Shown here piece by piece: positions 48,495 through 54,911 of a DNA stretch of 64,000 nucleotides; positions within the stretch are counted from its first letter, which is position 1, and every line of letters begins with the position of its first letter. The position numbers and the translations under genes are program-made. The notes under the pieces are model-generated. The model had not been told where the DNA came from. It was given only the letters and a program-made list of their open reading frames with translations, and ran no database searches. Origin of the DNA: Hyphomicrobiales bacterium (GTDB taxonomy: Bacteria > Pseudomonadota > Alphaproteobacteria > Rhizobiales > Xanthobacteraceae); assembly GCA_016185205.1 (NCBI GenBank), contig JACPOA010000019.1, positions 62,001 through 126,000 on the forward strand. The letters are read 5' to 3'.

Positions 48495-49736
48495 ATGTCA
48501 GCGACCCCCTGGAAAACCAACGACTGGTTCGTGAGCGAATGGAACTACGCTCCCGAAGTCACCAAGGACTTCAAGTTCGCCAAGAACATCAAGATCCACG
48601 ACGTCTCCTTGCGCGACGGCGAGCAGCAGACCGGCGTGATCCTCTCCAAGGACGAGAAAATCCGCATCGCCGAGGCGCTGGCCGAGGCCGGCGTGCACCG
48701 CATCGAAGCCGGCATGCCGATCGTGTCGCCGTCCGACAACGCGGCGATCAAGGAGATCGTCAAGCGCAACCTCGGCCCGCAGATCTTCTCGTTCGCCCGC
48801 TGCATGAAGGAAGACGTGCAGCGCGCCGTCGACACCGGCGTCAACGGCGTCGTCATGGAAATCCCCTCCAGCAAGCACATGCTCGAGCTGGCCTATCGCT
48901 GGCCGCTGGAAAAGGCGATCGAGACCTCGATCGAGGCCACCGCCTTCGCGCACAAGAACGGCCTCGAGGTGGTGTTCTTCCCGATCGACTTTTCTCGTGC
49001 TGAACTCAAATGGGCCATCGACCTGATCGAGAAGGTCGGCAAGGAAGGCCACATGGACGCGCTGGCGCTGGTCGACACCTTCGGCGTGCTGTCGCCGCAT
49101 GCCATGAAATATTTCGTCACCGAGGTGCAGAAGCGCATTCCGAAACGCCTGGAGGCGCATTTCCACCAGGACTTCGGCATGGGCGTCGCCAACACCATCA
49201 TGGCGCTGTCGCTCGGCGTCGAGGTGATGCACACGACCGTGCTCGGCATCGGCGAGAGAAGCGGCAACGCGCCGATGGAAGAGATCGTCATGGCGCTCAA
49301 GACCATGTACGGCGTCGACGTCGGCATCGACTGCACCAAGCTGACGCCGCTCGCCAACCTGGTGCAGCGGCTGACCGGCGTGGTGGTGCCGACCAACAAG
49401 GCCATCGTCGGCTCCGGCTTGTATCAGATCGAGTCGGGCATCATCGCGTCGTGGTTCAAGAACTGCGGCGAGAAGAACGCCACCGAGCTGTTCCCGATCC
49501 GCTGGTCGGCGGTCGGCCAGCCGCCGGCCGAGGTGGTGATGGGCAAGGGCAGTGGCATCGACTCGATCAACATGTGGCTCAAGGACGTCGGCATGCAGGT
49601 GTCGGAAGAAGACGCCATGAAGGTGCTGCAGGCGGTCAAGCTGCATTCGCTGACCAACAAAAAGATGCTCAGCCACGCCGAGTTCCGCGATGTGGCGCGG
49701 GCGACGCTCGGGCGGAGCCAGCAGGCGGCGGAGTAA
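48495..49736 (+). CDS. HMGL-like TIM-barrel protein (isopropylmalate/homocitrate synthase superfamily)
   Basis: KIHDVSLRDGEQQTGVILSKDEKIRIAEALAEAGVHRIEAGMP, LVDTFGVLSP, LEAHFHQDFGMGVANT. Confidence 0.88.
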   Translation: MSATPWKTNDWFVSEWNYAPEVTKDFKFAKNIKIHDVSLRDGEQQTGVILSKDEKIRIAEALAEAGVHRIEAGMPIVSPSDNAAIKEIVKRNLGPQIFSFARCMKEDVQRAVDTGVNGVVMEIPSSKHMLELAYRWPLEKAIETSIEATAFAHKNGLEVVFFPIDFSRAELKWAIDLIEKVGKEGHMDALALVDTFGVLSPHAMKYFVTEVQKRIPKRLEAHFHQDFGMGVANTIMALSLGVEVMHTTVLGIGERSGNAPMEEIVMALKTMYGVDVGIDCTKLTPLANLVQRLTGVVVPTNKAIVGSGLYQIESGIIASWFKNCGEKNATELFPIRWSAVGQPPAEVVMGKGSGIDSINMWLKDVGMQVSEEDAMKVLQAVKLHSLTNKKMLSHAEFRDVARATLGRSQQAAE

Positions 49737-49746
49737 ATCTCTCTTA

Positions 49747-49803
49747 TCCCTCCCCTGAACGGGGAGGGTCGGCGCGCCTCGAAGATGCGCGCCGGGGTGG
49801 GGT
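49747..49803. repeat. Short G/C-rich intergenic repeat (ccctgaacggggagggtc..gccggggtggggt)
   Basis: Shares the cctcccc(n)ggggaggg..gggtggg(g)t layout with 49913-49978 and 52271-52362. Confidence 0.62.
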
Positions 49804-49875
49804 GCTTACCCGCCGAGGCTTTAGCGAAGGCGGGTGATCTTCTCTCGCTTGCGGCGTCTCACCGCCACGAACGAC

Positions 49876-49907
49876 AAAGCCCCGGGGCGAAAGCCTCGGG
49901 GCTTTTT
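49876..49907 (+). terminator. Rho-independent terminator
   Basis: aaagccccggggcgaaagcctcggggcttttt. Confidence 0.82.
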
Positions 49908-49912
49908 GTGTT

Positions 49913-49978
49913 CTGCTTGCCTTCCCCTGGAGGGGGAGGGTCGCCCCGCCGAAGCGCGTAGCGCGAAGGCGGGTGGCC
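49913..49978. repeat. Second copy of the G/C-rich intergenic repeat
   Basis: ttcccctggagggggagggtcgccccgccgaagcgcgtagcgcgaaggcgggtggc. Confidence 0.62.
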
Positions 49979-50028
49979 GTGCGCGAACGCGGCCGGCTGG
50001 CCGCCGGCCTTCGACGGGCACACGAACA

Positions 50029-50400
50029 TCAGTTTTTGGCAGTGAGTTCGCGCATATTGGGCTCGGTTACACCCGACCAAAACGCAAGCACGCCGACCAC
50101 AATCCCGACAACGACTTGGTTCCACGTCGCGACGTGGCCGACGCTGAACCCCAGAACCCAAGGAGATACAACCAGCCACGCCCCGAGCGCCGCGCTAAGC
50201 CACTCCTCCCACTTTTGGAACTGCCATAAGGCTGCGGCCGATAGAACGGCGACGACAATTCCAATGGCATATGCATTCCAAGCTGGCGTTGTCTGTGCGG
50301 CATAGTCGAGCGCAAATGGCGACACAATCAGCCAAATACCAAGCACAAGATTGATTGCGTCCCGCCAGTACGCTGTAACCTTGTTCTGTATCTTAGTCAT
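50029..50400 (-). CDS. SPW-repeat membrane protein
   Basis: NLVLGIWLIVSPFALDY and ALGAWLVVSPWVLGFSVG: two SPF/SPW repeats, four TM segments. Confidence 0.8.
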   Translation of the reverse strand: MTKIQNKVTAYWRDAINLVLGIWLIVSPFALDYAAQTTPAWNAYAIGIVVAVLSAAALWQFQKWEEWLSAALGAWLVVSPWVLGFSVGHVATWNQVVVGIVVGVLAFWSGVTEPNMRELTAKN

Positions 50401-50467
50401 GACAACTACCTCCTGCAGGTTTGATGCTTCCTTTCCGTTGTTTGCCTTGGCCCGCGATCACGCCATG

Positions 50468-50566
50468 TCAGTGCACGGATGAGAAGGCCAATGCCAAGAT
50501 GAAAAACGTGCTCACTAGAAAGCCGCTCCATCCCAGCAATTGCTCCACTGCTATACGCCTGTTCAT
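50468..50566 (-). CDS. Putative 32-aa membrane peptide
   Basis: MNRRIAVEQLLGWSGFLVSTFFILALAFSSVH with upstream AGCGAGGTGAAAA; below the ORF-track cutoff. Confidence 0.4.
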   Translation of the reverse strand: MNRRIAVEQLLGWSGFLVSTFFILALAFSSVH

Positions 50567-50607
50567 TTTTCACCTCGCTAATGACAAGTCTCGGCGTCAG
50601 CGTTGCG

Positions 50608-51018
50608 TTAGTTAAGCACTCGCCCTTGCTCGCCGGGGTCGCGCGAGCGCAACCGGATTCCGAGCAGGCCGGCTCTCTTTTTCGCGAGCACCCGCTTGTA
50701 GTGAGGAAGCGGCTTACCATAGCCATCAGCCTCACGGTCCAAAGTACGAAGGGCATCCATGATATCGTCCCAACGGACAACATTGCCGGAAGGGCTCATG
50801 CGTAGTTCTGGTGCCGCCTCCAAAGCGCACGCATCGGAAGCCCATGACGCCAGAATTGCCCGCTTTTCGTTAAGCGTGAGATCAGCATCGCGCACGACAT
50901 CCATCGGATGCGCAAAGGCTCTCGCAGGATGCAAAAGCGCATCAAGGTCGCACTTGCTGTCAACGTGCGTTTCAGAGTTTGATGTTTTCAGTTTCTTCGT
51001 TTGATGCTCCATGGCCAT
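50608..51018 (-). CDS. Hypothetical protein
   Basis: MEHQTKKLKTSNSETHVDSKCDLDALLHPARAFAHPMDVVRDADLTLNEKRAILASWASDACALEAAPELR.. reads as a compact soluble protein. Confidence 0.62.
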   Translation of the reverse strand: MAMEHQTKKLKTSNSETHVDSKCDLDALLHPARAFAHPMDVVRDADLTLNEKRAILASWASDACALEAAPELRMSPSGNVVRWDDIMDALRTLDREADGYGKPLPHYKRVLAKKRAGLLGIRLRSRDPGEQGRVLN

Positions 51019-51090
51019 CCCTCCACGTCTTGAGGGAGGTGGTTCGGCTTTACGCGCGAGCCACCTCGACTGGCTTTGACGAGTTTCTTG

Positions 51091-51573
51091 CTATGCAACC
51101 TTGGAATGTTCGATGGTCCGGACCTTTTCGCCCTGACCAATGGCCTTCCCGGTCTTGATGTCGATGCGACGCGGCTTCATCGCCTCCGGCAATTCGCGCT
51201 CCAATTCGATCTGGAGCAAGCCCTCGTCGAGCGAAGCGTCCTTCACCACGACATAGTCTGCGAGATTGAAGCGCCGCTCAAACGAACGACCCGCGATGCC
51301 GTGGTAAAGATATTCGCCCTTGTCCTGCTTCTCGTCCGCGCGACCCGTGATTATCAGCATATTCTGGTTGACGGTGACGTTGATCTGGTCCGGCTTGAAG
51401 CCGGCGACCGCCAGCGAGATACGGTAAGAGTCCTCGCCGGTCCGCACGATATTGCAGGGTGGGTAATGATCCTCCGGTTCAAACCGAAGGCTCTCATCCA
51501 TCAAGTCGAACAGCCGGTCGAAGCCGATGCTGGTCCGCCAGAAGGGGTCTAGATTCAGGTTCCTCATAGCCAC
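51091..51573 (-). CDS. Hsp20 family small heat-shock protein
   Basis: PPCNIVRTGEDSYRISLAVAGFKPDQINVTVNQNMLIITGRADEKQ..YLYHGIAGRSFERRFNLADYV (alpha-crystallin domain). Confidence 0.93.
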   Translation of the reverse strand: MAMRNLNLDPFWRTSIGFDRLFDLMDESLRFEPEDHYPPCNIVRTGEDSYRISLAVAGFKPDQINVTVNQNMLIITGRADEKQDKGEYLYHGIAGRSFERRFNLADYVVVKDASLDEGLLQIELERELPEAMKPRRIDIKTGKAIGQGEKVRTIEHSKVA

Positions 51574-51656
51574 ATCCTCCGTTGAGCAACATGGAAATGA
51601 GCAGCGCGCCGGACATCCGCCGACGCCCGCACCGGGTCTATTGGCACCCCGGCGGC
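51574..51656 (-). promoter_or_regulatory. ROSE-type RNA thermometer in the hsp20 5' UTR
   Basis: Minus strand ..GCGTCGGCGGATGTCCGGCGCGCTGCTCATTTCCATGTTGCTCAACGGAGGATGTGGCTATG; TTGCT opposite GGAGGAT at the SD is the ROSE hallmark. Confidence 0.85.
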
Positions 51657-51661
51657 GGACG

Positions 51662-51689
51662 ATTTAGAAAACCGACATGGAGGTTCAAG
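51662..51689 (-). promoter_or_regulatory. Candidate RpoH-dependent promoter for hsp20
   Basis: Minus strand CTTGAA-N16-CTAAAT, placing a start site just 5' of the ROSE element. Confidence 0.45.
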
Positions 51690-51911
51690 ACCCATCACAA
51701 AAATTTTATCGAGAGGGCAGAACGCCAACAAACAAGAGGCCGCGCGCAGCGAACGCGCAGCCTCAGATACGGACCGAAAAGGTCCCACCATCCAGCGATG
51801 GCTCGGTTCGATGGGTCCGGCGGTGGATGGTAACGGACCGATAAACGCCGGAAATTTATTTTGGTTCCGAGTGAGCAATATTTTTCAGGATTTAGTGCAG
51901 GAAAATCGTCC

Positions 51912-51940
51912 TTGACAGCGTCACGCTACTAGGCTATTAT
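51912..51940 (+). promoter_or_regulatory. Near-consensus sigma70-type promoter
   Basis: TTGACA-N17-TATTAT. Confidence 0.6.
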
Positions 51941-51953
51941 TCCTTCACGATCC

Positions 51954-51991
51954 GGCCCCTGCGTTTTGCGCGCACCGGGGCCTTTTTCTTT
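51954..51991 (+). terminator. Terminator/attenuator-like hairpin just after the promoter
   Basis: GGCCCCTGCG-ttttgcg-CGCAccGGGGCCTTTTTCTTT. Confidence 0.65.
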
Positions 51992-52021
51992 CGCAAAATC
52001 AACCACAAACGGAGCCTCGCC

Positions 52022-52741
52022 ATGGGCAAAACCATGCGCGCCATCTTGGCGCGCCGCCTTTCCTTCACCGACGAACTCAAAGCCAACGTGCGCCAGCGCT
52101 TCGAGGGGAGCGACGAGCCGCTTTCGACGATGGCGGCCGACCTCGGCTGCTGCAAGACCACGCTGCGCGGCATCGCCAAGCGCGAGGGCTGGCTGCGCTT
52201 CGTGCGCCCGCCGCGCGAATTATTGCCGGCGGCGAAGTTGGCGATGCGGGCGGAGAAGTTGGCCGCTGAACCTCCCCCTGAAAGGGGGAGGTCGCCGAGC
52301 GAAGCGAGGCGGGTGGGGGTCGAAGCGACCCCCGAAGTGACCCCCACCCTTTCAGGGGGAGGGGGCGGAGAGGCACTTGCAGGGGGAGGTAGAGAAAGAG
52401 AAACCGCCGAAGCGCTGCATGCTGCGGTGGAGCAAGAGCTGGCCGAGTTCAAGGCCGAGCGCGCGCAGCTCAAGGGCAAGCCGCTCGGCCTGCTCGCGCG
52501 CGAGCGCGCGGCGCGCACGCTGGCGGGCCTCACCCGCACCCTGCAAATGCTGCAAGCCATGCGCTGCGGCGTTCTCTTACCCGAAAGCCACAATGACAAT
52601 GCCTATGACGACATGCCCGCCGACCTCGATGAATTTCGCAATGAACTTACGCGACGCATTGATGCGCTGCTCGCGAGCCCGCCGGACGAAGGAGATCGTG
52701 TGGAAGCTGCGGATGAACGAAATGATGAGGCTGGCGCGTGA
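52022..52741 (+). CDS. HTH protein upstream of terminase (terminase-small-subunit-like)
   Basis: FTDELKANVRQRFEGSDEPLSTMAADLGCCKTTLRGIAKREGWLRF (HTH), then a repeat-encoded segment, then a helical C-terminus. Confidence 0.62.
   Translation: MGKTMRAILARRLSFTDELKANVRQRFEGSDEPLSTMAADLGCCKTTLRGIAKREGWLRFVRPPRELLPAAKLAMRAEKLAAEPPPERGRSPSEARRVGVEATPEVTPTLSGGGGGEALAGGGRERETAEALHAAVEQELAEFKAERAQLKGKPLGLLARERAARTLAGLTRTLQMLQAMRCGVLLPESHNDNAYDDMPADLDEFRNELTRRIDALLASPPDEGDRVEAADERNDEAGA
52271..52362. repeat. Long palindromic G/C-rich repeat inside a CDS
   Basis: Outer arms CCTCCCCCTGAAAGGG (52271-52286)/CCCTTTCAGGGGGAGG (52347-52362) and inner arms GGGTGGGGGTC (52311-52321)/GACCCCCACCC (52339-52349), all perfect. 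Confidence 0.88.
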
Positions 52742-54014
52742 CTTCGCCCCGTTCGCGCATGCGCATCAGCGCCCGCCGGCCTTAGCCGCCAATGGCGCGC
52801 CGTGGCGCACCTGGCTGCTGCTGGGCGGGCGCGGCGCCGGCAAGACGCGCACCGGCGCCGAATTCGTGCGCGCGCTGGTGCATGGGCACGCGCCTTTCGC
52901 CGAGGCGCCGCACGGCTCCATCGCGCTGGTGGGCGAGACCGCGCACGACGTGCGCGAGGTGATGATCGAGGGGCCGTCCGGCATCCTGCGCACGGCGCCG
53001 CGCAGCGAGCGGCCGCACTGGACCAATATGCGGCGGCGGCTCGAATGGCCGAACGGCGCGGTGGCTTATGCTTTCTCGGCCGAGGATCCCGAGCAGCTGC
53101 GCGGGCCGCAGTTCGACGCCGCCTGGTGCGACGAGCTCGCCAAGTGGCATCACGTCGAGGCGACGTTCGACATGCTGCAGTTCGGCCTGCGCCTGGGCTT
53201 AGCTCCGCGCGCGCTCATCACCACCACGCCGCGGCCGATCCCATTGATCAAGCGGCTGGTGGCCGATGCGCGCACCGCCGTGACGCGCGCGCCGACGCGT
53301 GCGAATGCCGCCTACCTTGCGCCCGGCTTTGTCGACGAGGTGCTGGCGCGCTATGGCGGCACGCGGCTGGGGCGGCAGGAGATCGACGGCGAGATCATCG
53401 AGCAGCGCGCCGATGCGCTGTGGTCGCGCGCGCTCATCGAGGCGGCGCGCGTGGCAAAGGCGCCGCCCTTGGCGAGGATCGTCGTCGGCATCGATCCGCC
53501 CGGCTCGGGCCGCGCAGGCTCCGACGCCTGCGGCATCGTCGCCGCCGGCATCGCGGAGAACGGCACCGTCTATGTGCTGGAGGACGCGAGCGTGCAGGGA
53601 CTATCGCCGTCCGGCTGGGCGAGCAAGGCGGTCGCGCTCTACCGCAGGCGCAAAGCCGACGCGCTGGTGGCCGAGGTTAATCTCGGCGGCGACATGGTGC
53701 GCGCCGTGCTGCAGCAGGTCGACGCCAGCGTCGCGGTCAAATGCGTGCACGCCACGCGCGGCAAGTGGCTGCGCGCAGAACCCATCGCCGCCATGTACCA
53801 ACAGGGGAGGGTCAAGCATGTCGCCCCGCCGCTCGCGGCGTTGGAAGATGAAATGTGCGACTTCGGGCTCGACGGCTTGTCGTCGGGCGCCTCGCCCGAC
53901 CGGCTCGACGCGCTGGTCTGGGCGGTGACCGAACTGGCCGAGCGCGGCGCCTTTGCGGGCCCGCGTATCCGCAGCCTGTGGGACGGGCCGCTCACACCGC
54001 TTGGGCGGCGGTAG
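52713..54014 (+). CDS. Phage/GTA-type terminase large subunit
   Basis: WRTWLLLGGRGAGKTRTGAEFVRALV (Walker A), ALVGETAHDVREVMIEGPSGI, AWCDELAKW (Walker B), VVGIDPPGSGRAGSDACGIVAAG (nuclease). Confidence 0.88.
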   Translation: MNEMMRLARDFAPFAHAHQRPPALAANGAPWRTWLLLGGRGAGKTRTGAEFVRALVHGHAPFAEAPHGSIALVGETAHDVREVMIEGPSGILRTAPRSERPHWTNMRRRLEWPNGAVAYAFSAEDPEQLRGPQFDAAWCDELAKWHHVEATFDMLQFGLRLGLAPRALITTTPRPIPLIKRLVADARTAVTRAPTRANAAYLAPGFVDEVLARYGGTRLGRQEIDGEIIEQRADALWSRALIEAARVAKAPPLARIVVGIDPPGSGRAGSDACGIVAAGIAENGTVYVLEDASVQGLSPSGWASKAVALYRRRKADALVAEVNLGGDMVRAVLQQVDASVAVKCVHATRGKWLRAEPIAAMYQQGRVKHVAPPLAALEDEMCDFGLDGLSSGASPDRLDALVWAVTELAERGAFAGPRIRSLWDGPLTPLGRR

Positions 54015-54059
54015 GCGTTGTTATCTTTACCCTCCTGGAGGGGAGGGTAAGAAAGTGCG

Positions 54060-54911
54060 TTACGCCTTGAACGCCACGATGGTCTGCTTCTGCTCGCCCA
54101 GCCCCGTGATGCCCAGGTTGACCACGTCGCCGACACGCAGATATTTCGGCTCCACCTTGCGCCCCAAGCCGACGCCGGCGGGCGTGCCGGTGACGATGAC
54201 GTCGCCCGGCTCGAGCACGAAGAACTGCGACAGATACCAGACGATGTGCCGGCAATCGAAGATCATGTTCGCTGTATTGCCGTTCTGCCTCAGGTCGCCG
54301 TTGACTTTGGTCCAGACGCTGAGCTTCTGCGGATCCTTAAGCTCGTCCTTGGTGACGAACCAGGGGCCGAGCGGGCCGAAGGTCTCGGCACCCTTGCCCT
54401 TGGCGATGGTCTGCCCGTGCTCCATCTGGAATTCGCGCTCCGACACGTCGTTGCCGATGCAGTAGCCGGCGACCGCGTCCAGCGCCTTCTCTTTCGTCAG
54501 ATAGCGCGCGCGCTTGCCGATGATGATGGCGAGCTCGCATTCGTAATCGAGCTTGCTGGAATTCTTCGGCATCATGGTGTTGTCGTTCGGTCCGCAGATG
54601 CAGCTCGGCGCCTTGTTGAACACCACCGGCTCCGCCGGGATCGGATTGCCGCCCTCGGCCGCGTGATCTCTATAGTTGAGCCCGATGGCGATGAAGTTGC
54701 GCACGCGCCCGATGCAGGGGCCGATCCGCGGCTTGCCGGCGACCGCCTTCAGCCGCTTGATATTGGCCTTTCTGATCTTGGCGAGGCCGCCGGTGGCCAG
54801 CATCTCGCCGTCGATGTCTTTGACGATGCGCGACAGGTCCCTGATTTTGCCGTCGGCGTCGATGATGCCGGGCTTCTCGCGGCCGGGTGCGCCATAGCGG
54901 ACGAGCTTCAT
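54060..54911 (-). CDS. Fumarylacetoacetate hydrolase family protein
   Basis: MKLVRYGAPGREKPGIIDADGKIRDLS, IGLNYRDHAAEGG, DYECELAIIIGKRARYL, TGTPAGVGLGRKVEPKYLRVGD. Confidence 0.92.
   Translation of the reverse strand: MKLVRYGAPGREKPGIIDADGKIRDLSRIVKDIDGEMLATGGLAKIRKANIKRLKAVAGKPRIGPCIGRVRNFIAIGLNYRDHAAEGGNPIPAEPVVFNKAPSCICGPNDNTMMPKNSSKLDYECELAIIIGKRARYLTKEKALDAVAGYCIGNDVSEREFQMEHGQTIAKGKGAETFGPLGPWFVTKDELKDPQKLSVWTKVNGDLRQNGNTANMIFDCRHIVWYLSQFFVLEPGDVIVTGTPAGVGLGRKVEPKYLRVGDVVNLGITGLGEQKQTIVAFKA

Follow-up and report, generated by a model that had tools for sequence, protein, structure and literature searches.

A dispersed palindromic repeat, very probably mobile, lies in-frame in the linker of a terminase small subunit-like gene of a Hyphomicrobiales bacterium

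The window, a stretch of 64,000 nucleotides from a Hyphomicrobiales bacterium, contains an open reading frame at 52022–52741 (plus strand) that is followed by the gene for a terminase large subunit (TerL; 52713–54014, plus strand; Terminase_6N, E 1.5e-27; Terminase_6C, E 1.8e-23), which overlaps the stop of the upstream frame by 29 nt. Orthologues of the upstream frame are located immediately 5′ of TerL across the genus. The AlphaFold model of its product contains helices at residues 17–29, 34–41, 45–55, 69–82, 122–150, 157–182, and 202–218, which form a set of HTH-like helices at the N-terminus, a long hairpin of helices, and a helix at the C-terminus. Gene order and predicted helices together point to a terminase small subunit (TerS)-like protein with an HTH, a linker, a helical core, and a C-terminal helix. 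No Pfam family scored above the cut-off for this frame and no PHROG matched it, a fold search of the model against the PDB gave no match at E ≤ 0.001, a tblastn search against phages with the low-complexity filter on gave no match, and a first scan of named genomes with the TerS query returned nothing. The missing family and fold matches lower the confidence in the assignment but do not overturn it, because the TerS class is highly diverged. In phage TerS proteins, the linker between the HTH and the core is flexible and protease-sensitive (PMC9611059). The predicted layout is in agreement with the first-pass annotation of this DNA, which had described a protein upstream of the terminase in which a low-complexity linker connects an HTH domain to a helical C-terminus.

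The TerS-TerL pair (52022–54014) stands alone, without portal or capsid genes, and is followed by a minus-strand FAA hydrolase gene. The same arrangement of the pair was seen in genome G031, and the solo terminase is conserved at 71–76% identity in many members of the genus. Downstream of another TerL, in G004, lie portal, protease, and tail genes, similar to a GTA cluster.

The linker region of the TerS-like gene contains a large palindrome. Its outer arms (52271–52286 and 52347–52362) are perfectly inverted over 16 bp and its inner arms (52311–52321 and 52339–52349) over 11 bp, so that the nested arms described previously were found exactly where they had been placed. In 1000 dinucleotide-preserving shuffles of the 190 bp from 52241 to 52430, perfect inverted arms never exceeded 13 bp and so fell short of 16 bp in every case. 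The left arm is a hairpin in its own right, CCTCCCCCT-GAA-AGGGGGAGG, and the RNA from 52262 to 52410 is predicted to fold with −81.3 kcal/mol (z = −4.5 versus shuffles). An Rfam scan of 49000–54500 revealed nothing at the palindrome; the sole match was a ROSE RNA thermometer (RF00435, 57.4 bits) at 51561–51651 on the minus strand, upstream of an HSP20 gene (51091–51573).

The palindrome is in-frame in the ORF, and the translation yields the peptide that the first-pass annotation had given. The limits proposed there were 52271–52400; the repeat-derived stretch is somewhat longer, about 52268–52403 on the plus strand, and comprises about 45 codons. It corresponds to residues ~83–128, which are predicted as coil (pLDDT ~48–57) between helix 69–82 and helix 122–150, and pieces of it match other genomic copies. 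The stretch is composed of three parts. A complete half-element (52270–52322, plus strand) consists of hairpin I (CCTCCCCCT/AGGGGGAGG), hairpin II (CGCC..GGCG), and GGGTGGGGGTC; it was detected by a covariance model of the repeat, R1, with 75.3 bits and an E value of 6e-18 in the window. A second half-element (52326–52363, minus strand; 19.8 bits) is inverted and shortened and closes the large palindrome. After the second arm follows a third fragment, CTTGCAGGGGGAGGTAGAGAAAGAG (52376–52403, minus strand), the outer edge of a further copy; it matches other copies at their outer edges, with 88–96% identity at C23:22903, C38:3645, and C27:4211.

Two non-coding copies of the repeat are located upstream in the window, both on the plus strand. 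The first, at 49747–49805 (50.7 bits), had been noted at this position. The second had been placed at 49913; it is indeed a copy, but a degenerate and weaker one (25.3 bits) that spans 49921–49976. In the whole genome of this organism, a draft of 4.38 Mb in 112 contigs, BLAST with the palindrome region found 31 places. The R1 covariance model, built from an alignment of 29 copies from this genome, gave 97 matches that were merged into about 72 sites, which bears out the earlier designation as a G/C-rich dispersed repeat. Many of the matches are inverted (+/−) pairs about 60–80 bp apart, and about 59 of the sites, i.e., about four fifths, were not assigned to ORFs. Of 44 genomes of the genus, 42 contain the family, and the single-contig genomes G004 and G012 have 111 and 109 matches, respectively. 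Misassembly is argued against by the copies in complete genomes and by the in-frame state of the repeat in many genes. A blastn search of the repeat against plasmids, with the low-complexity filter on, gave no match.

Each half-element carries two hairpins. Hairpin I is nearly invariant among the 29 aligned copies (CCTCCCC..GGGGAGG). Hairpin II varies yet stays paired: 48 cells were changed on both sides, compared with 15.3 in shuffles, and none of 500 shuffles reached this value. This pattern suggests conservation of the structure and not of the sequence, or correction by template switching. Full-length copies, as found in PrmA, end with the terminal inverted repeats TTATCCCTCCCC...GGGGAGGGATAA.

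At least 13 of the R1 sites are in-frame inside ORFs, with one open frame through the repeat and coding-like sequence on both sides. Coding status was scored on loci of about 3 kb by open frames and a home-made codon usage score, and the number is therefore approximate. Two of the 13 host genes are TerS-like, one being the TerS gene of the window and the other its paralogue on contig C5. The other 11 encode UvrD, PolA, UvrB, HrpB, a B12-type ribonucleotide reductase, a UbiH-like monooxygenase, PdhC, SucA, SucB, PrmA, and a hydantoinase-like protein; the last name is derived from reading the sequence, the other ten from Pfam, which assigned them to conserved families with the inserts located inside or between domains. 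Both orientations of the repeat and different frames are used, and 68% of the frames across repeat intervals are free of stop codons. These features would fit insertion followed by loss of frame-breaking copies, and not a designed coding module.

For three of the host genes, sites or orthologues without the insert were found. Among 30 genus genomes in which PrmA was read, the insert is present in six and a clean empty site in 24. It is located between LAKRRR and the motif RVLDIGTG, and in the 24 empty genomes these flanks are directly joined. Even the closest relative whose PrmA site is empty is only about 80% identical, and the junctions of the empty sites are too diverged for a target-site duplication to be read. 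A scan of named genomes with PrmA gave 80 loci, of which only one (L209) has the insert, which matches that of G036; at a further locus, L216, the protein is extended by about 20 residues that look unrelated, a few loci have shorter extensions, and no repeat-type peptide was seen in any of these. The PolA insert is at one site in the genome under study, G036, G022, and G029, and it is absent in G024 and G020. In the TerS protein alignment, there are orthologues without a counterpart of the 45-residue stretch, and the shortest have no such stretch at all. Conservation of the segment as amino acids over diverged DNA in all orthologues, which the first-pass annotation had named as the outcome that would speak against its reading, was not seen: the orthologues either lack the segment or have different insertions.

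The TerS linker turned out to be a repeated target. TerL orthologues were collected independently of the linker, and 19 TerL-linked TerS genes of the solo type, according to our grouping, could be read. In eight of these, i.e., in the genome under study, G002, G006, G009, G011, G014, and both copies of G034, R1-family elements are inside the ORF, in the linker or the N-tail; the N-tail insert is common to G002, G009, and G011, and these three are probably not independent. The family is absent from the remaining 11, and no R1 match was found within the ORFs of the second TerS group. Orphan TerS paralogues with R1 elements were found as well, two in the genome under study and others in G015, G039, and G040, but the query contained the insert and this set is biased. 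The two own orphans, L088 (G000:C5:158400-161600) and L144 (G000:C43:99700-102900), have repeat-derived linkers and no adjacent TerL. Other repeats also occupy this position. The linker of G055 contains a CGTC-like dimer, which among TerS linkers was seen in G055 only and of which that genome has at least 40 copies, and the linkers of G011 and G014 contain a third repeat family with dozens of copies. The linker core of G002 recurs more than 20 times in its genome. Variability and low complexity are general features of the TerS linkers in this genus. If intragenic sites were chosen at random, the presence of two of 13 in four TerS-family genes would have a probability of about 7e-5, calculated post hoc with an assumed number of 4200 genes.

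Taken together, we regard it as very probable that this is a mobile protein-coding palindrome of REP/RPE-like type, one copy of which was inserted in-frame into the disordered TerS linker and has been kept because the linker tolerates insertion. A short, non-autonomous repeat with two hairpins would have inserted, presumably by transposition, into the linker region of the TerS-like gene. An insert with a length divisible by three would be translated as a disordered Pro/Gly/Arg-rich stretch, because the repeat is GC-rich and stop-free in most frames. The insert may then have persisted in a nearly neutral state, since TerS linkers, like the inter-domain loops of PolA, UvrD, PdhC, and PrmA, would tolerate extra residues.

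Several other explanations were considered. The palindrome could be a cis-regulatory RNA, the stem of which slows ribosomes or stabilizes the mRNA and thereby tunes translation of the overlapping terminase gene. The strong predicted fold is in favor of this explanation, and the 29-nt overlap makes coupling plausible. However, the stem is missing in most orthologous TerS-TerL pairs, the same repeat is present in eleven unrelated ORFs and at about 59 sites that were not assigned to ORFs, and a distance of about 310 nt separates the stem from the start of TerL further downstream. A regulatory function is thus improbable, and the earlier suggestion that the stem could pause translation just before the terminase found no support.

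Similarly small is the probability that the insert was recruited and selected, in that repeat-derived linkers alter the reach or the oligomer geometry of TerS and insertions are useful, not merely tolerated. The independent occurrence of several repeat families in the same linker, R1 in many genomes and two others in G055 and in G011/G014, and the enrichment of TerS-family genes among the own intragenic sites would be expected from recruitment. Tolerance accounts for the same enrichment, however, more than half of the TerL-linked solo TerS genes manage without the R1 family, and the inserts share neither a conserved sequence nor a conserved length.

Pac sites of phages can lie inside the TerS gene, as in P22. 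By analogy, the repeats inside solo TerS genes might be pac-like sites, and TerS might bind hairpin repeats both within its own gene and throughout the genome; a domesticated machine for packaging or DNA processing would then use the dispersed repeats as entry points. The different repeat families in the linkers of different genomes speak against this, and we consider it very unlikely. Least probable of all is an ordinary ancestral low-complexity linker with a palindrome that is a by-product of GC-rich Pro/Gly/Arg codons: it would be in accord with the general variability of TerS linkers, but it was rejected, together with chance, on the basis of the shuffle test and the orthologue alignment, and the nucleotide matches to dozens of non-orthologous copies also contradict it.

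The interpretation as a mobile protein-coding palindrome has precedents, as in-frame palindromic repeats are already known. Rickettsia palindromic elements (RPEs; Ogata et al. 2000, reviewed in PMC2229807) have lengths of 105–146 bp and are in-frame in many conserved protein genes, where the insert is tolerated. R1 resembles them in being a palindromic element that is in-frame in several unrelated conserved proteins (13 ORFs here) of an alphaproteobacterial host and is absent from orthologues, as the PrmA, PolA, and TerS comparisons revealed. In contrast to RPEs, the host belongs to a Hyphomicrobiales-related genus and not to the Rickettsiales, and R1 is very GC-rich, unrelated by inspection, and mostly located at sites not assigned to ORFs. 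Intragenic GTAG/CGTC REPs are known from several bacteria, and their targets include DNA repair genes such as uvrB, uvrD, and polA (PMC3733652, Di Nocera et al. 2013). Like R1, they are short palindromic dispersed repeats that often form inverted pairs and are mostly intergenic and sometimes in-frame, and UvrB, UvrD, and PolA are targets of both. R1 differs in its stem, in having two hairpins per half, and in the terminal tag: no GTAG or CGTC tag was present in the alignment of 29 copies; the stem begins with a CCTC string, but it lacks the A/T pairs at its first positions by which CGTC families are defined. Because the defining tag is missing, the R1 family was not filed under the GTAG/CGTC REPs. 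Terminase is not mentioned as a REP target in the main text of PMC3733652. Br-REP1 and Br-REP2 of Bradyrhizobium, reported as intergenic or in 3′-UTRs (PMC5082802), are likewise dispersed palindromic repeats of related Hyphomicrobiales, but their consensus sequences differ from that of R1.

With bacterial MITEs, R1 shares the small size, the lack of an own coding capacity, and inverted terminal repeats (TTATCCC...GGGATAA in full-length copies); it differs by its strong internal hairpin structure and in that no mobilizing partner transposase was tied to the family in its own genome. A RAYT was searched for in this genome but is not supported as mobilizer, as a single Y1 transposase/RAYT-like ORF was found (L113, G000:C72:3262-3555) that has 21 bits versus a Pfam cut-off of 23, adjoins a ribonuclease D-like gene, and has no repeat motif within about 1.5 kb.

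No description of the untagged R1 family or of terminase as an insertion target, with a linker that is invaded repeatedly, was found in the open-access literature searched. The results document RPE-like protein-coding palindromes in large numbers in a GC-rich, Hyphomicrobiales-related genus that does not belong to the Rickettsiales, and dozens of sister genomes offer empty sites. What had been noted for one linker is a genome-wide and genus-wide phenomenon. The spread of such elements and the effect of in-frame inserts on essential enzymes (PolA, UvrD, ribonucleotide reductase, PrmA) become testable by comparison. For annotation, a warning follows: database peptides such as PHPQPLPTRGRG or PTPTLPLAGGG can be translated repeats and not protein domains.
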